A stretch of DNA of 49,994 bases, from assembly GCA_001513285.1 (NCBI GenBank), contig LFTI01000055.1, positions 1-49,994 of the forward strand. The letters run 5' to 3'. The position numbers were made by a program, and so were the translations under genes. Each line of letters opens with the position of its first letter. The first letter of the stretch is position 1. The notes beneath the pieces are model-generated. The model was not told the DNA's origin and ran no database searches. It saw only the letters and a program-made list of their open reading frames with translations. This stretch comes from Rikenellaceae bacterium DTU049 (GTDB lineage Bacteria; Bacteroidota; Bacteroidia; Bacteroidales; DTU049). Of this stretch, positions 9,390 through 18,468 are shown one piece after another.

Positions 9390-10397
9390 ATGAAACAGAT
9401 AATCGAAGACGTAGAAGAGTATATCTCTATGGGCAAGCAAGAAAATCTCGCATTTTTAGATAATCTCTACAATCTATTATTGGAGAAAGAAGCTGATGCA
9501 GTAGATTATCAAGAGGTAAAAACTCTGAGTGCTGCTCCTCTGTGTCCCAATTGTGAAAGTAGTAATATCATCAAGAACGGCAGACAACAAGGGCAGCAAC
9601 TTTATATTTGTAAAGATTGTGGTAGGAACTTTAGAGTAACTACTGGCACTTTCGTTTATAAAATTCAAAAACGTGAAAAAATGCTTGGTTACATTCGCTG
9701 CATGCTTGAAGATAAAACCTTACAACAATGTGCTGATGAGGTGGGTATAAGCTTACCAACAAGCTTTGCATGGCGACATAGGATACTAGCAGCTCTCAGG
9801 AGCTTTGATAATAATGTAAATTTTTTTGGCATTATCGAGTTGAAACAATTACTCATGGAATACTCTGAAAAAGGCAGAAGAAAGCGTAATGCAATGGACA
9901 AATTAATAGCCAAAATACGAAGACTTCAAAAAGTAGCTGTGCTAGCTACTCAAGATAGAAGTGGTAATATGCTTTTTAATGTTGTAGGCTTCCAAAAGGT
10001 AAGGCAAGCACATATAGAAAAGATATTGACAACAAAAATCTCAAAAAATGGTGTAATATGTAGTGATGACGATGAAGAATTGCGAAATATACAAGCCAAA
10101 GAACTTAGGAGAAAAGAGTTAATAAAAAATAAAAAGAGTAAAAATGATTTGTATGGATTGACAGCTATAGAGAAGCATACAGGCATATTTGTGAATTGGA
10201 TAAATTATAAATTCAAAGGTGTAGCTACCAAATATCTGCAAAGCTACATAATGTGGTATATAATAAAACACAAATATTTGTTAAAGAAATTGATAGAAGA
10301 TGTAGGCAGGATGCTTAATTTAGCTTCATCAGATCGGCAAGCATGGTATGTGTATATGGAGTTGAGATTAAATCCAATATTGATTTTAAAAGATTAA
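9390..10397 (+). CDS. IS1595-family-like transposase, catalytic Asp replaced (copy 1)
   Basis: The 335-residue protein has a zinc ribbon (CPNC at 52-55, CKDC at 74-77), a helical segment with LQQCADEVGISLPTSFAWRH, and a DDE-type core ending in GVATKYLQSY. It is clearly related over its length to the protein at 33079-34071. In the family, as I recall it, the core begins with E-A-D-E; here residues 150-153 are E-L-K-Q, so the first catalytic Asp (column 152) is Lys. The second Asp is kept in ICSD (D226). The reading frame is fully open. It may be an inactive transposase, or a domesticated DNA-binding protein. Confidence 0.82.
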   Translation: MKQIIEDVEEYISMGKQENLAFLDNLYNLLLEKEADAVDYQEVKTLSAAPLCPNCESSNIIKNGRQQGQQLYICKDCGRNFRVTTGTFVYKIQKREKMLGYIRCMLEDKTLQQCADEVGISLPTSFAWRHRILAALRSFDNNVNFFGIIELKQLLMEYSEKGRRKRNAMDKLIAKIRRLQKVAVLATQDRSGNMLFNVVGFQKVRQAHIEKILTTKISKNGVICSDDDEELRNIQAKELRRKELIKNKKSKNDLYGLTAIEKHTGIFVNWINYKFKGVATKYLQSYIMWYIIKHKYLLKKLIEDVGRMLNLASSDRQAWYVYMELRLNPILILKD

Positions 10398-10511
10398 TCT
10401 TTTACTTGCCTTTTCCACACTTTTTATAAATCCGTTTAATTAATATTCTAAAAAATCCTTTAATTTGCAAAAATTTTCATTTAAAATTATGCAACTTCTC
10501 ATTTTATTACT

Positions 10512-11060
10512 ATGAAAAGATTTAATGATAGTAATATAAAAATATTTGATGAATTAGTAGAAAAAACTCAAAAACCACTATTTCGTTTGGCTCTTAATAT
10601 ATTAAAAGATGAGGAGGTAGCTATGGATATAGTTCAAGATACGTATGTAAAAGCATGGGAAAATTGGTATGGGTTCAGAGCTCAGTCAGATCCTAAAACC
10701 TGGCTTTATAGAATTGCTATTAATTTATCTCTTAATCAATTAAAAAAAAATCAAAGAATTGTAAATTTTAATAAATTTACAAATGAGAATTTAGATGATG
10801 ATAATGAAAAATATACCTACGAACCAGCTGATCCAATTTCAATAGAACAATTATTAGATAGCAAAGAAAGAAATATTTTAATTAAAAAAGCTATTGATAA
10901 ACTGCCTTTAAATCAAAAATTAGTTCTACAATTATTTTACTATGAAGGATTTCATTATAAAGAAGTTTCAGAAATACTAAACATAAGTGTATCTTCTGTA
11001 GAATCTTTGCTTTTCAGAGCTAGAAAAAATTTAAAAAAATATTTAGCAAATTATAGATAA
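10512..11060 (+). CDS. ECF-type RNA polymerase sigma factor
   Basis: The 182-residue protein has sigma region 2 (LFRLALNILKDEEVAMDIVQ onward, with KAWENW) and region 4 (LPLNQKLVLQLFYYEGF through VSSVESLLFRARKNLKKYL), as in ECF sigma-70 factors. Region 3 is absent, as expected. The next genes on the same strand encode a zinc-finger anti-sigma factor and two CpxP/ZraP-like proteins. It probably controls its own cluster in response to an envelope or metal signal; that role is inference from context. Confidence 0.95.
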   Translation: MKRFNDSNIKIFDELVEKTQKPLFRLALNILKDEEVAMDIVQDTYVKAWENWYGFRAQSDPKTWLYRIAINLSLNQLKKNQRIVNFNKFTNENLDDDNEKYTYEPADPISIEQLLDSKERNILIKKAIDKLPLNQKLVLQLFYYEGFHYKEVSEILNISVSSVESLLFRARKNLKKYLANYR

Positions 11061-11197
11061 TATTTTATAATTTGCTAAAAAAAATAATTATTGCTTTTTA
11101 TTAGTGATTTTTTATAGTATAAAAAATGGTGTTTAAATAATAAAATAATATTTCAAAATAAAACGCAAGTTTTTTTTAATTTAAATGTCTAATAAAT

Positions 11198-11602
11198 ATG
11201 AATTGCGATGAAATACAAAAATTTTTAATTGAAAAATCAGTTGAAGAGCTTTCAAATGCTGATTTATCTCATATTAATAATTGTGAGAAATGTAAACAAT
11301 TGGCTATATTATTGGATATTGATTTACATTTAACACTAGATGAATGTTGGGACCAACCTACTGATTACAATTTAAAAATATTGAATCAAAGGTTACAAGC
11401 ACATCCATGGCAAAAAGTTATTCCAAAAAGAACTTTAGTAAATACTATCCCTTGGGTTGCTGCAATAGTTACTATAATTATAGCTTTATATATATTCCTC
11501 TTTTCGGAATCACATAGTATAAATATTAATTATAATGATGAAACTCATTATTATTATACTGACGTTATGTTTACTAATTTTTTAAATAATAATGAACAAT
11601 GA
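11198..11602 (+). CDS. Membrane-anchored zinc-finger anti-sigma factor
   Basis: The 134-residue protein starts MNCDEIQKFL and has the HxxxCxxC element of zf-HC2 anti-sigma domains (H25, C29, C32, with C3 nearby). A single membrane segment (about 84-103) is followed by a short 30-residue exterior tail. The N-terminal cytoplasmic part would bind the ECF sigma factor encoded upstream. Its stop overlaps the start of the next gene by 4 bases, so the two are probably translationally coupled. Confidence 0.85.
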   Translation: MNCDEIQKFLIEKSVEELSNADLSHINNCEKCKQLAILLDIDLHLTLDECWDQPTDYNLKILNQRLQAHPWQKVIPKRTLVNTIPWVAAIVTIIIALYIFLFSESHSININYNDETHYYYTDVMFTNFLNNNEQ

Positions 11603-12270
11603 AAACGAAAACATTAATTATTTTATTTGGCATTTCTATTGGAGTAAATATTGCTTTATTAATAATTATAATTTATGATCATAGTAAAATAAATAAATTA
11701 GAAAAACAAAGTCAAACAATAGAGTGGAAATTTCCTAAACATGAAAAACATAGACCTCTCTTGGATGATTTACAATTATCTCCTAAACAAGAGCTTGATA
11801 TGAAAAACGAGATGCATTTATATAGATCACATATTAAAATTTTTGCCGATTCGATGAACATTATTAGAGATTCTTTATTTAGACAATTAAATAAAGATAA
11901 TACTGATACAATTATAATAAATAAATATATAGATAGCCTTGTTCATTTTGATAGAAAAATGCATCAAGAACTCGTTAAACACTTGACAGTTGTAAAATCA
12001 ATTCTTGATAAAGAACAATATAATATCTTTTTTGAAAATATGAAAGATAAATTTAAACCACGTTGTAAACCAAACAATAAAAAATATAAAAGCTATGAAA
12101 AAATTAATGAGTATTTTAATGATGTCCATCATTGTTGTGGGAAGTTATCCTTTGATGGCACAGAAAAAAGTTCAGAAAAAAGTTCAACCATCTTCTCCAC
12201 CCCAAGCTCCTCCTACTTCACAGGTAGTAGAGCAACCACAAAAAGCACGTGGATGGCAAAAAATTCCTAA
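11599..12270 (+). CDS. Membrane-anchored CpxP/ZraP-like periplasmic sensor, with out-of-frame C-terminal extension
   Basis: The 223-residue protein has an N-terminal membrane anchor (about 5-26) and a helical periplasmic domain with two LTxxQ-like motifs (LQLSPKQ near 58-64 and LDKEQY near 136-141), as in the CpxP/Spy/ZraP/CnrX group. Several His and Met residues could bind metal. From about residue 166 the frame runs through the start of the next gene, producing a Ser/Thr-rich tail unlike the family. The native stop was probably lost by a small frameshift or mutation near 12090. The domain is likely the sensor paired with the upstream anti-sigma factor. Confidence 0.75.
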   Translation: MKTKTLIILFGISIGVNIALLIIIIYDHSKINKLEKQSQTIEWKFPKHEKHRPLLDDLQLSPKQELDMKNEMHLYRSHIKIFADSMNIIRDSLFRQLNKDNTDTIIINKYIDSLVHFDRKMHQELVKHLTVVKSILDKEQYNIFFENMKDKFKPRCKPNNKKYKSYEKINEYFNDVHHCCGKLSFDGTEKSSEKSSTIFSTPSSSYFTGSRATTKSTWMAKNS

Positions 12271-12700
12271 TCTTACAGATCAACAAAAAGAGCAAATAAC
12301 AACTTTGCATACTGCACATATTAAGCAGATGACTATACTAAAAAATCAATTAGAAGAGAAAAAAGCACAAATGAATACAGCTACTTCGTGGGCTTCATAT
12401 AATGCAGCTGACGCAGAGAAACTACTTGATGAAATCTATAATATAAAATTGCAGTTAGCAAAAGAAAAATTATCTTTCCATGATGCTGTTAGAAACTTGT
12501 TGAATGAAGATCAAAAAAATTTCTGGGATAAAAAATTTAACATGAATCAAAGAAAAAACAAGATGGGACAGTGTTGTAATAATATGCAACATTGCAATCA
12601 GTCATGTTCACAACATAATATGATGCAGGGGTGTATGCACCAACAAGGTAATATACAAAATCATGGTGAACAATGTTATCACGGGCGAATGAAAAAATAA
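12095..12700 (+). CDS. Secreted CpxP/Spy-like protein with Cys/His/Met-rich tail
   Basis: The 201-residue protein has a signal peptide (about 1-23, ending PLMAQ), a Pro/Gln-rich linker, and a helical domain with LTDQQKEQI (60-68) and LNEDQKNFW (136-144), matching the two LTxxQ motifs of Spy/CpxP chaperones. The last ~45 residues hold six Cys (160, 161, 167, 171, 180, 194), five His and many Met, suggesting thiophilic metal binding such as Cu, Zn or Ni; the metal is unknown. It is the last gene of the sigma/anti-sigma/sensor cluster and overlaps the preceding frame by 176 bases. Confidence 0.85.
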   Translation: MKKLMSILMMSIIVVGSYPLMAQKKVQKKVQPSSPPQAPPTSQVVEQPQKARGWQKIPNLTDQQKEQITTLHTAHIKQMTILKNQLEEKKAQMNTATSWASYNAADAEKLLDEIYNIKLQLAKEKLSFHDAVRNLLNEDQKNFWDKKFNMNQRKNKMGQCCNNMQHCNQSCSQHNMMQGCMHQQGNIQNHGEQCYHGRMKK

Positions 12701-12716
12701 TCTATTAGAAATTAAT

Positions 12717-12753
12717 AAAAAAATAGCGATGATAATTCATCGCTAATTTTTTA
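12717..12753. terminator. Bidirectional rho-independent terminator
   Basis: A perfect 9-bp stem TAGCGATGA (12724-12732) and TCATCGCTA (12737-12745) with a 4-base loop is followed by a T-rich run and preceded by an A-run. It lies between the convergent genes ending at 12700 and 12765 and can serve both. Confidence 0.85.
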
Positions 12754-12764
12754 TTAATTTTTAA

Positions 12765-13247
12765 CTATTCATTTGCCTCTGAATATCTCTCTATCCATAT
12801 TTGCTTTGCTAGTTCATATAGCTGCGTTGATAATTCATTTTTAGGCCCTAACTGTATATATTTCGGCATTTGGTTCTCTATATCTTTTGATTTAATATTA
12901 TTCCTCATAGAATAAATTTCTAAATACAAATCTTTTATTAATTGCATAGTCTCATTTTTAATTACTTCATAGTCTGTCAATGCTTGATTAATGTAATCAA
13001 TGATGTTTTCAATGTTCTGTGAATTTGGGTATATCACATATCCATAACCATCTACTGAAGAAAATGCAGCAAAAATGGCTAAATCAATTTTTTCTAATGC
13101 CCTTGCTAGATAATCTGCTCTATTATTATCTGTGATTCCGTTAATATATAATTTACTTACATTCCAAGCAGGCAGATTAATGTTTGATTGACTATATAGA
13201 AAATTAATAGACATTGAAACCATAATAATTGCAATATACTTTTTCAT
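12765..13247 (-). CDS. Secreted protein of unknown function
   Basis: The 160-residue protein has a signal peptide (about 1-20, ending FLYSQ). The mature part is mostly helical and contains no Cys. No family was recognised. It faces the sigma-factor cluster across a shared terminator and is the last gene before the deacetylase/trehalose cluster, about 200 bases away. Confidence 0.65.
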   Translation of the reverse strand: MKKYIAIIMVSMSINFLYSQSNINLPAWNVSKLYINGITDNNRADYLARALEKIDLAIFAAFSSVDGYGYVIYPNSQNIENIIDYINQALTDYEVIKNETMQLIKDLYLEIYSMRNNIKSKDIENQMPKYIQLGPKNELSTQLYELAKQIWIERYSEANE

Positions 13248-15285: not shown

Positions 15286-18200
15286 TTATTTATGTTTAAT
15301 AAAAACAAACTGATCTTTATATAATTGGTAACGTTTATTTTTATATTCTACTGCTACTCTATCACCATCTTTTAATGTTTTACCTTTTATGAGAATAGTA
15401 TTTTGAGTTATTTCTATGTTAAACCAATTATGTCTATGGCAAAAATTAAAAGATAATTTTTTCCAATGTTTAGGTAAGACAGGGTCAATACGAAAGCGAT
15501 TTTTGAAAAGATTAATACCTGCAAAACTTTTGAATATAATATCTAATGTGCCACCCATCAGTCCAGCATGTATTCCTTCTCTAGTTGTACCACCTTGTAA
15601 ATCATAGATATCACTTTTGAGAGCTGTTAAAAACCAATTCCACATATCATCATAGCTATCTTTCAGATATATAAGTATGGCAGAATGTACTACAAAGCTC
15701 AGAGTAGAACCATGTGAGGTTCTCTGAATATAATAATTATAGTTTTTTCTCATAAACTCAAGCTCATCACCAATATGATAACCCATAAGCTCTAAAATAT
15801 GTTTAAGCTGTCCAGGAGATAAAAAGTAATAAATCATCAACACATCTGCTTGTTTAGAAAGTTTATAGTTGTCTGGGCTATCGCCTTCGGCTTTAAGAAT
15901 ACGATCCATTCTGCCTATATTACCATATTTATCTTTATAATGTTGCCAATTTAGTTCTTTTAGATTCATATAGCCAGCAAATTGAGAAATTATACCTTCA
16001 TCAGTTATCTCAACATATAATTTACTTACTATCTCTTTCCATAGTGCTATTTCTTCTTCTTTGAAACCTATTTTTCTTTTTAATCTGTCTTTTTCTTTTT
16101 TGGGTAAATATTCATAAGTTTCGATAGTTTTGTGCATTATCCATGCTGTCATTATATTAGTATAAGCATTATCATCGATGCCACCCTTTTCGGCATTAGG
16201 ATATTTTTCGTGAAATTCGTCTGGTCCCATTACCCCATATATATGATATCTACCATCAACTTTATTATATTCAATAATACTAGAAAAAAAGCGAGCTATC
16301 TCTAGCATCATTTCTATTCCATAATTATGCAAAAAATCTAAATCTCGAGTTACATAAAAATACACCCAAATATTATAAGATATTGCTAAAGATACATGTC
16401 GTTGCAATCTGCTGAGATCAGGGTCCCATTTACCAGAAATAGGATTATAATGTAGCTCTTGAGTTTCTTCATCACCAGTATCAGCCGATTGCCAAGGATA
16501 CATAGCACCTTCATAACCATTATCTCTAGCATATCGGAGAGCTGCATCTAATCTACGATATCTATACATTAATAAATTTTTAGTAATCTCTGGGTTCCAT
16601 ATATTAAAAAAAGGGAAAATAAAAATTTCATCCCAGAAAATATGACCTCTATATGCTTCACCATGCCATCCTCTGGCTGGTGCTCCTGTATCTATGTATT
16701 TATTAAATATGTTGGCAGTTACTAATAAATGATATGAATATAGCCTAACTGCTAATTGAGAAAATCTATCTCCTTCTATTACATAATCTTTCTCTTCCCA
16801 AAGTTTTTGCCAAGCTTTTATATGTTTATCTAATAATTTTTCATAAGATTTTAGTTTTCTAATAGTTTTAAATGATATTTTAAAAATATCTTCATCTACG
16901 GTATCACGATCCTTATCTTTAGAAGTAAATAATGTAACGTATTTTTCTAATGTATAAGTTACCCCTTGACCGGCTTCTAATTTAAAATATTCAGAAATTA
17001 TCTCATCGTGTATATTTACATCACTTTGCAAATCTAATATTTTATCATTTTCTAACAATTTATGTTTAGCTGCAATTAATATTTTTACAAAAGATCTGTT
17101 AGTTTGTGAATACAAATATATATATCCATTCATCGTAGCTGCATCTATTACTTCTAAATGTTTATTGCTTAGATCTCTATATCTAGCCACACCATAATTA
17201 ATCACACTACCATCTATAGATGAGCGTATTACAATATCAGAAGAATAATTTTGTGGAGTGAATTGATATTTCACAGCACCTACGTGCATATCATCCATGC
17301 TAATGAAATTTTCAGTTTTTAAATTTGTAATTCTATCGTTTTGGTCTTTAAAAGTAATTTCACGAGTTACTATGCCATTGAGCATATTTAAGTCATGTTT
17401 ATATTTTAGAATTTCACAATCTAGAGGATTAAAAAAATCTCCATCTCCTATTTTCAGTTCTACCAATAACCAATTAGGACAGTTTACTAAATCATTATTG
17501 TAAATTGTTCTATCGTGCACTTGTGAAGGTAATCTATTATATAATCCAGCAATATATGTACCTGGATAATGCTCATCTACTTGCATTCTACTGCCAACAA
17601 AAGCTCCCCTAGTAGCAAAATATCCATTACCTGTAGTAGTTAAAGACTCTCTAAGCATTTCTTCATTTTTATCATATTTATAATATATAAGATGCCAAGC
17701 TTTTTCATTTATACCATTAGCAAACCAATCTTCTATTTGTTCCCAAGTAAGTTCACTGAGGTCTTTAACAACTATATCGGCGCCATTTTCTTTTAGCAAT
17801 TCAGGAGCTGTCCTACGAGCTACACCTACTACTAAAGCAAAATTACCATTTTTACCTGCTTCTACACCAGAGATAGCATCTTCGAAAATCATACATTCAG
17901 TAGGATATAATCCCAATTGATGAGCAGCTGTTACGAAAATATCTGGATTTGGTTTACCTTTTAAACCTAATTGCTCTGATACTACACCGTCTACAATAGT
18001 TTCAAATAAGTTTTCTAATCCTGCATTTTCTAAAATCAATGAGCTATTTTTACTAGAAGTTGCCAAACCTACTTTAATGTTTTGTTGTTTTAATATATTA
18101 ATCAATTCTATCGTTGAGCCGAATACTTCCACACCTTTTTCTCTAATAAGTGTATGAAGTAATTCATTTTTTTTATTTCCTATACCACAAATTGTTTCTT

Positions 18201-18468
18201 TATCAGGGCTATCGTCTGGATGTCCGAATGGTATATTTATATTACGAGATTCTAAAAAAGATTTTACACCTTCGTATCTAGGTTTACCATCTACATAGTT
18301 AGGATAATCTAATTCATAAGAAAAAGGTTCTAATATTAAGCCATTTTCTTGTGAAAATTTTTCTAAAAAATCATCAAAAGTTTTTTTCCATGCTTCGCGA
18401 TGTAGCTTTGCACTAGCAGTTACTACACCATCTAGATCAAAAATTGCTCCTTTACATAATTCATTCAT
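15286..18468 (-). CDS. Beta-phosphoglucomutase / GH65 glycoside phosphorylase fusion
   Basis: The 1060-residue protein fuses two enzymes. Residues 1-~230 form a HAD beta-phosphoglucomutase: nucleophile and acid/base D11 and D13 in FDLDG, TSSKNSS (137-143), KPNPDIF (172-178) and EDAISG (196-201). Residues ~255-1060 form a GH65 phosphorylase with FWDE (611-614) and the general acid E751 in GPDEF. GH65 enzymes split trehalose, maltose or kojibiose with phosphate to glucose and beta-glucose-1-P; the mutase converts the latter to glucose-6-P. Adjacent trehalose synthesis genes suggest trehalose as substrate. It starts 6 bases after the preceding gene's stop. Confidence 0.92.
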   Translation of the reverse strand: MNELCKGAIFDLDGVVTASAKLHREAWKKTFDDFLEKFSQENGLILEPFSYELDYPNYVDGKPRYEGVKSFLESRNINIPFGHPDDSPDKETICGIGNKKNELLHTLIREKGVEVFGSTIELINILKQQNIKVGLATSSKNSSLILENAGLENLFETIVDGVVSEQLGLKGKPNPDIFVTAAHQLGLYPTECMIFEDAISGVEAGKNGNFALVVGVARRTAPELLKENGADIVVKDLSELTWEQIEDWFANGINEKAWHLIYYKYDKNEEMLRESLTTTGNGYFATRGAFVGSRMQVDEHYPGTYIAGLYNRLPSQVHDRTIYNNDLVNCPNWLLVELKIGDGDFFNPLDCEILKYKHDLNMLNGIVTREITFKDQNDRITNLKTENFISMDDMHVGAVKYQFTPQNYSSDIVIRSSIDGSVINYGVARYRDLSNKHLEVIDAATMNGYIYLYSQTNRSFVKILIAAKHKLLENDKILDLQSDVNIHDEIISEYFKLEAGQGVTYTLEKYVTLFTSKDKDRDTVDEDIFKISFKTIRKLKSYEKLLDKHIKAWQKLWEEKDYVIEGDRFSQLAVRLYSYHLLVTANIFNKYIDTGAPARGWHGEAYRGHIFWDEIFIFPFFNIWNPEITKNLLMYRYRRLDAALRYARDNGYEGAMYPWQSADTGDEETQELHYNPISGKWDPDLSRLQRHVSLAISYNIWVYFYVTRDLDFLHNYGIEMMLEIARFFSSIIEYNKVDGRYHIYGVMGPDEFHEKYPNAEKGGIDDNAYTNIMTAWIMHKTIETYEYLPKKEKDRLKRKIGFKEEEIALWKEIVSKLYVEITDEGIISQFAGYMNLKELNWQHYKDKYGNIGRMDRILKAEGDSPDNYKLSKQADVLMIYYFLSPGQLKHILELMGYHIGDELEFMRKNYNYYIQRTSHGSTLSFVVHSAILIYLKDSYDDMWNWFLTALKSDIYDLQGGTTREGIHAGLMGGTLDIIFKSFAGINLFKNRFRIDPVLPKHWKKLSFNFCHRHNWFNIEITQNTILIKGKTLKDGDRVAVEYKNKRYQLYKDQFVFIKHK

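Follow-up and report, generated by a model that had tools for sequence, protein, structure and literature searches.

The 49,994-nt stretch of DNA analysed here (the window; contig LFTI01000055.1 of Rikenellaceae bacterium DTU049, from a metagenome-assembled genome, or MAG, of 1.54 Mb that is 64% complete) carries four consecutive genes for an extracytoplasmic function (ECF) sigma factor, an anti-sigma factor and two proteins of the CpxP/Spy/ZraP type. The ORF (open reading frame) list places all four on the plus strand, at the positions given in a preliminary description of this DNA. The gene of the sigma factor (10512..11060, 182 aa) is followed after a 137-nt gap by that of an anti-sigma factor of the zinc-binding anti-sigma (ZAS), zf-HC2-like type (11198..11602, 134 aa). 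This overlaps by 4 nt the third gene, ORF3 (11599..12270, 223 aa), which encodes a membrane-anchored protein with a predicted CpxP/CnrX fold, proposed to be a sensor or co-anti-sigma; the fourth gene, ORF4 (12095..12700, 201 aa), encodes a secreted Spy/ZraP-like protein and begins within ORF3. A promoter motif, GCAAGTTTT-N13-GTCTAA, is matched exactly on the same strand at 11165..11192, 5 nt upstream of the anti-sigma ATG, a distance kept in the genus, so the mRNA may be leaderless. Downstream, a hairpin and T-run read by eye (12724..12755, plus strand) is likely to be the intrinsic terminator of the operon, with similar structures after ORF4 in the relatives inspected.

The sigma factor matches the Pfam families for regions 2 and 4 (PF04542 at 3.8e-16 and PF08281 at 4.7e-16), in agreement with the preliminary description, and its family profile, run against three proteins, recognised CnrH at 4.8e-21. 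Next to it, the anti-sigma factor bears C3, H25, C29 and C32, an Hx3Cx2C motif with the upstream Cys/His residue that is characteristic of ZAS partners of ECF sigma factors, followed by a single membrane span (residues 84-102, hydropathy 2.61) and, by alignment and hydropathy, a short periplasmic C-terminus. The four residues are invariant in 12/12 aligned copies and in all 28 rows of a larger alignment, whose 16 order-level rows were preselected for the motif; left out of this alignment are L235 and the six order-level loci that lack the zinc motif (L232, where the anti-sigma was miscalled, among them). A zf-HC2 anti-sigma factor with one span had been predicted: the span and the zinc motif are present, but Pfam zf-HC2 itself (PF13490) gives no score for the window copy, although it is above cut-off for the anti-sigma factors of two relatives tested.

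Neither the anti-sigma factor nor ORF3 from the window gave anything usable when searched singly against Pfam and NCBIfam, and ORF3, for which no convincing family match emerged in this way, was placed through alignment profiles. A profile built from 35 aligned ORF3 proteins recognises Spy (4.8e-9), ZraP (6.3e-7), NccX (1.4e-4) and CnrX (1.1e-3), and the protein has an N-terminal span at residues 7-25 (hydropathy 2.93), in agreement with its earlier description as a membrane-anchored CpxP/ZraP-like protein. ORF4 starts with a signal peptide-like segment and is matched by PF13801 (3.1e-5) and by the Spy model of NCBIfam (5.1e-7), in each case under the curated cut-off; the profile of the aligned ORF4 proteins (28 rows, comprising only loci with an ORF4 call) reaches ZraP at 3.4e-10 and Spy at 2.2e-9. 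The AlphaFold cores of both proteins consist of two long helices of ~30-36 residues, preceded by a short helix and followed by a shorter one. The leading Foldseek matches of each, all at weak E-values (0.089 at best for ORF3 and 0.007 for ORF4), are ZraP, CnrX, CpxP, Spy and a Salmonella VirG-like protein. Both thus show the LTxxQ four-helix hairpin fold of the CpxP/Spy/ZraP superfamily, and Gln64 and Gln140 are invariant in the alignments (35 ORF3 rows, 28 ORF4 rows). ORF3 is also, by both its profile and its fold, distantly related to CnrX and NccX.

The C-terminal tail of ORF4 (12539..12697, plus strand, 53 aa) is rich in Cys, His and Met, with 6, 5 and 7 of these respectively; counted over its final 45 residues, the figures are 6, 5 and 6, in line with the secreted CpxP-like protein with a Cys/His/Met-rich end that had been reported from the sequence. 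At least one Cys is found in 25/28 aligned tails, the most Cys-rich being those of the window (6), its nearest relative (7) and L035 (6). The tail partly aligns with the Gly-rich tail of ZraP, with a weak score.

The overlap between ORF3 and ORF4 spans 176 nt (12095..12270, plus strand), in which the final 58 codons of ORF3, stop included, lie out of frame over the signal-peptide region of ORF4. The frame is open in all three copies from the genus, and none of the other aligned relatives showed the overlap. An overlap maintained by selection was considered and rejected: the ORF3 tail is the less conserved part (50% vs 65% identity between the window and G003), and after synonymous recoding the frame was still free of stops in 24%, 7% and 29% of the trials, so that no clear selection on the tail is evident.

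The module recurs well beyond the window. The genus has three copies including that of the window, the other two sharing 66% and 94% identity with the window ORF4, and 65% and 94% with ORF3. ORF4 matches were found in 18/40 nearest genomes, and the full order of sigma, anti-sigma, ORF3 and ORF4 is present at 11 of these 18 loci (window included); one further locus is cut by the end of its contig and starts partway through the module, and six have no same-strand sigma gene close upstream. At the level of the order, a PF13801 search was positive in 49/79 genomes, and among 40 regions sampled from 37 of the positive genomes, 23 have a sigma gene followed by an ORF3-like gene. Sixteen of these 23 loci have an ORF4 call and 17 an anti-sigma factor with the zinc motif. 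The search for this gene order elsewhere in Bacteroidota, a check set beforehand, therefore found it conserved, which together with the three genus copies argues against a chance arrangement. An ORF4-like match occurs in 107/392 genomes of the wider phylum, with a related sigma gene nearby in 25 of 40 such places read, in several different gene orders, and a search of named genomes with a 6-row alignment returned five loci from Bacteroidales or Bacteroidetes MAGs, such as Rikenellaceae bacterium DTU001. Two of the seven order-level loci without an ORF4 call, L224 (4223-5119) and L249 (4822-5628), have a DUF2202 gene after ORF3.

The motif GCAAGTTTT-N13-GTCWAA was recognised just upstream of the anti-sigma gene in the twelve closest loci. 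Its core pattern was written after these loci had been viewed, and the counts of 10/12 before the anti-sigma gene and 6/11 before the sigma gene (counting only loci whose contig includes the sigma gene; all six are from family members outside the window genus) are accordingly descriptions and not tests. The window has a single site at up to two mismatches, a looseness at which 0.52 would be expected by chance, and the site itself is exact; in the order-level loci, the background of the core pattern is 0.004 per 110-bp region. The 23 order-level loci played no part in deriving the motif, and the bounds of the region scored in them were set after the loci had been seen. At a spacing of 13 and a score of at least 13/15, the motif stands before the anti-sigma gene in 15/23 and before the sigma gene in 10/23, while the other spacings between 8 and 18 yield 0-3 of the 23 loci apiece, the reverse strand gives none, and mononucleotide shuffles give means of 0 and 0.025 loci reaching the score. 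To judge from their sequence, the boxes resemble those of sigmaE promoters, for which a -10 of about TCAAA and a -35 of about GGAACTT are given for RpoE in the available part of PMC12153292. They differ from another ECF motif, in which the -10 box is CGT and which is linked to type IX secretion system (T9SS) genes in the sections consulted of a transcription start site (TSS) study of F. psychrophilum (PMC9723704).

The same motif recurs before a second kind of gene. A looser pattern scanned over 15 genomes gave 31 sites (19 at spacing 13, three at 12 and nine at 14), with 26 sites over the three spacings in a backward control; the 19 at spacing 13 divide into 14 at an anti-sigma, sigma or outer-membrane protein (OMP) gene, one upstream of a DUF302 gene and four in other places. 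The exact motif is sparser: 17 sites in 13 of the 79 order genomes, with five in the backward control. Nine of the 17 belong to sigma or anti-sigma genes and four stand before genes of the CarboxypepD_reg/OMP_b-brl_3 type in four families; one precedes a small secreted-looking gene beside a module, and three have no convincing target, one of them lying inside an ORF. The four OMP genes, two of them Pfam-checked, match the OMP of G003 at 5.5e-63 or better with 31-32% identity, and were compared as homologues, not as established orthologues; an OMP_b-brl_3 gene encodes a TonB-receptor-like outer-membrane barrel. In nine of the ten family genomes having such a gene (G002, G003, G004, G005, G007, G008, G009, G010 and G011), the motif occurs at spacing 13 before the best OMP homologue, with scores of 14/15 in the genus and G007, and 11 or 12 in G008-G011. 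What appears to be new is this sigmaE-like promoter motif, found by sequence comparison at the anti-sigma and sigma genes and before the OMP gene homologues.

Two of the remaining sites can be described further. In G007, the spacing-13 motif ends 18 nt upstream of the candidate ATG of the DUF302 gene (L080:1736-2116). In G447, the exact motif lies upstream of a gene (L261:1529-1948) whose small, secreted-looking product has a repeated DGVCD motif and a stretch rich in Cys; a module lies just downstream.

We consider it rather probable that the module is a Bacteroidota ECF envelope-stress system, with a tethered CpxP-like sensor and a motif-read regulon that includes the OMP gene. The evidence is computational throughout: the gene order, the folds, the zinc motif and the recurring promoter motif are read from sequence, whereas the reading of the motif by this sigma, the part played by ORF3, the signal and the direction of control are deduced from them. 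As we infer its operation, the zinc-binding anti-sigma factor would retain sigma at the inner membrane, and ORF3, acting as a periplasmic sensor or co-anti-sigma, would keep the anti-sigma factor inhibiting. The available text of PMC4803752 states that inactivating CnrY or CnrX frees CnrH in Cupriavidus, so proteins of the CnrX kind are able to act as brakes. A related sigma/anti-sigma/Spy operon, that of P. vulgatus described below, has been demonstrated to form a regulon (PMC13114119), which also speaks for this reading. Envelope damage, most likely in the form of misfolded outer-membrane protein and possibly as metal stress, would occupy ORF3 and so free sigma, which would then read GCAAGTTTT-N13-GTCWAA promoters at the anti-sigma-ORF3-ORF4 operon and at the OMP_b-brl_3 family barrel gene. 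Brake, sensor and secreted Spy-like chaperone would rise together, giving negative feedback; in the genus, sigma supply would perhaps be constitutive, with brake and sensor rising on activation. More tentatively, and at less than even odds, the module could be widespread in Bacteroidota and correspond there to the sigmaE circuit by which E. coli answers outer-membrane stress, built as a titration switch from ORF3 and ORF4 as paralogous chaperones sharing a fold: tethered ORF3 would hold the brake, secreted ORF4 would compete for the same misfolded outer-membrane client, and sigma would raise both together with the OMP_b-brl_3 barrel.

Several observations weigh against an envelope-stress system of this kind. 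The OMP gene of G006 lacks the motif, and outside the genus the OMP sites are weaker (11-14/15) and were chosen as the best site upstream. G002 and G004 have the motif before the OMP gene, yet neither was found to have a sigma gene, an ORF3 or a clear match to ORF4; either these MAGs are incomplete or fragmented, or another sigma factor reads the OMP motif. The OMP gene itself was not found in the 64%-complete window genome, nor in G001. Eight of the 23 order-level loci fall under the score threshold before the anti-sigma gene, and in the wider phylum the motif is near only 4/25 sigma-bearing regions. The ORF3 model has a middling mean pLDDT (predicted local distance difference test) of 58 and a best Foldseek E-value of 0.089. 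Finally, no motif precedes the sigma gene in the window genus, where the best scores are 10, 9 and 9 of 15, so sigma is not evidently autoregulated there. All three genus copies instead have a TAATTTGC element upstream of sigma, a candidate -7-type promoter element (10461..10468, plus strand, in the window) that fits motif SM5, TAnnTTGY, of F. psychrophilum in the sections consulted of PMC9723704; no GCAAG-N17-GTC site was found at this region. With TAATTTGC in place of the motif, the supply of sigma may be constitutive in the genus.

The preliminary description had read the module as CnrYXH-like, and metal sensing is the rival with most to be said for it: ORF3 would bind periplasmic Cu, Zn, Ni or Co and release sigma, and the Cys/His/Met tail of ORF4 would buffer metal. 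The likeness holds in that both systems bring together an ECF sigma factor, a single-span anti-sigma factor and a membrane-anchored four-helix sensor of the CpxP superfamily, ORF3 being distantly related to CnrX and NccX; it fails in the anti-sigma type (CnrY lacks a zinc motif, whereas that of the window is of ZAS type), in the gene order (anti-sigma, sensor, sigma there; sigma, anti-sigma, sensor here), in the metal ligands, and in the pump, since the window ORF list has no cnrCBAT-type resistance-nodulation-division (RND) pump beside the module. To compare ligands, CnrX of Cupriavidus metallidurans pMOL28 was aligned without gaps by the ORF3 profile over residues 41-130, its N-terminal part being the less certain, with Met123 and with what we take to be the other ligands, His42, His46, Glu63 and His119, all of them present in the pMOL28 sequence. 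The His119 position is His128 in the window and His in 19/35 ORF3 proteins; the Met123 position is Val132 in the window and Met in 12/35, and both are kept in only four of the 35. Glu63 is kept in none, His46 in two and His42 in four, the window among these last, so that ORF3 does not conserve a metal site of the CnrX type. The frequency of His at the His119 position and of Cys in ORF4 tails speaks for metals, as do a CusA/CzcA-family heavy-metal RND pump directly after sigma, anti-sigma, ORF3 and ORF4 in G445 (L221:4831-7998) and a cation diffusion facilitator (CDF) transporter directly after ORF4 in G027; but these are the only two transporter neighbours confirmed, neighbour genes having been identified by family search in chosen loci and not systematically annotated, and the second target that recurs with the motif encodes a barrel of the outer membrane instead of an efflux pump. 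On balance, we think it unlikely that metal sensing is the function of the module, while metal stress is a possible signal within an envelope-stress system.

The invariance of C3, H25, C29 and C32, qualified by the preselection of the 16 order-level rows, would also suit an anti-sigma factor that itself senses redox or metal at its Cys3-His cluster in the manner of RsrA, with ORF3 and ORF4 both being effectors, and the RsrA model matches the L221 relative at 1.5e-7, under its curated cut-off. Six of the 23 order-level loci nevertheless lack the zinc motif, as scored by regular expression, and still have sigma and ORF3; five of these have a small span-bearing ORF between the two, the sixth being the miscalled L232. 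We rate sensing by the anti-sigma factor as less probable again than metal sensing by ORF3. The motif might, alternatively, be the site of some other regulator or ECF sigma factor, leaving the four genes only loosely co-regulated. This would account for G002 and G004, with their motif and no detected sigma, and for the genus sigma gene without a site, but the two-box form, the fixed spacing, the -10 resembling that of sigmaE (in the available part of PMC12153292) and the placing of the motif at the sigma and anti-sigma genes themselves leave it highly improbable.

The nearest described system to the module is CirY/CirZ-Spy of Phocaeicola vulgatus, likewise with an ECF sigma factor, an anti-sigma factor and a Spy-like periplasmic protein in one Bacteroidales operon that sigma raises. 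According to the available sections of PMC13114119 (2026), this sigma/anti-sigma pair and its co-transcribed Spy are up over 130-fold in colitis, deleting cirZ raises cirY and spy, and the authors mention a second CirY/CirZ-like pair; the words "metal" and "copper" are absent from the main text. With a Spy gene beside a sigma/anti-sigma pair already described in those sections, the secreted effector that the preliminary description called unusual is not the only one of its kind. No ORF3-like protein is named in them, whereas ORF3 lies between the anti-sigma and Spy-like genes in the window. Loci of the three-gene type were found in two order genomes (L275 and L288), with anti-sigma candidates of 119-129 aa that the anti-sigma profile did not match and no motif site of at least 12/15; at L277, two small secreted-looking proteins follow an anti-sigma candidate that is likewise unmatched by the profile and without the motif. 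These three loci may equal CirYZ; the lack of the motif and of an anti-sigma match in loci of this type points to the window module being a four-gene variant with its own promoter.

Spy, CpxP and ZraP (PDB 3oeo, 3itf and 3lay) share their fold and profile with ORF3 and ORF4. ZraP belongs to the ZraSR circuit. ORF3 and ORF4, in contrast to these chaperones, adjoin an ECF sigma factor, not ZraSR or the CpxAR and BaeSR circuits noted in the available sections of PMC13114119. SigAb-AabA-AabB of Acinetobacter is also an ECF sigma operon, copper-linked and with two downstream anti-sigma proteins, but its promoter elements are CGTT (-10) and GTCAAC (-35), and no Spy-like gene is noted in the available part of PMC12153292. 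The Dma/Das (ECF21) systems of Bacteroides likewise pair an ECF sigma factor with an anti-sigma factor in Bacteroidota, and they act on the outer membrane; identity with them was considered and ruled out by the differing anti-sigma type, theirs reaching from outer membrane to cytosol in the portion consulted of PMC13088901, and that of the window being a small one-span zinc-motif protein. Only 6% of Bacteroidota ECF genes had a class I anti-sigma domain next to them in a 2020 survey, according to the part available of PMC7406223. Our literature search found no description of the four-gene module or of its motif.

To our knowledge, the sensing of outer-membrane damage in Bacteroidota is poorly known. 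With its recognisable promoter and its predicted target in the outer membrane, the recurrent module provides a testable list of genes and sites for cultured relatives, and places Spy-type chaperones beside ECF sigma factors in a group wider than the published P. vulgatus case.

The surroundings of the module are varied. In the window, an IS1595-family transposase gene (9390-10397) stops 114 nt upstream of the sigma gene; in G005 (L029), the end of a matching transposase gene precedes the module and a related-looking start, read by eye, also follows ORF4, and in G003 (L030) a different gene lies upstream of sigma. Convergent to the module, on the minus strand at 12765-13247, is a 160-aa secreted-looking ORF for which Pfam and NCBIfam gave no convincing family match. 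Further along the same strand (15286-18468), a 1060-aa ORF resembles, by eye only, a fusion of a phosphoglucomutase-type HAD domain with a glycoside phosphorylase.

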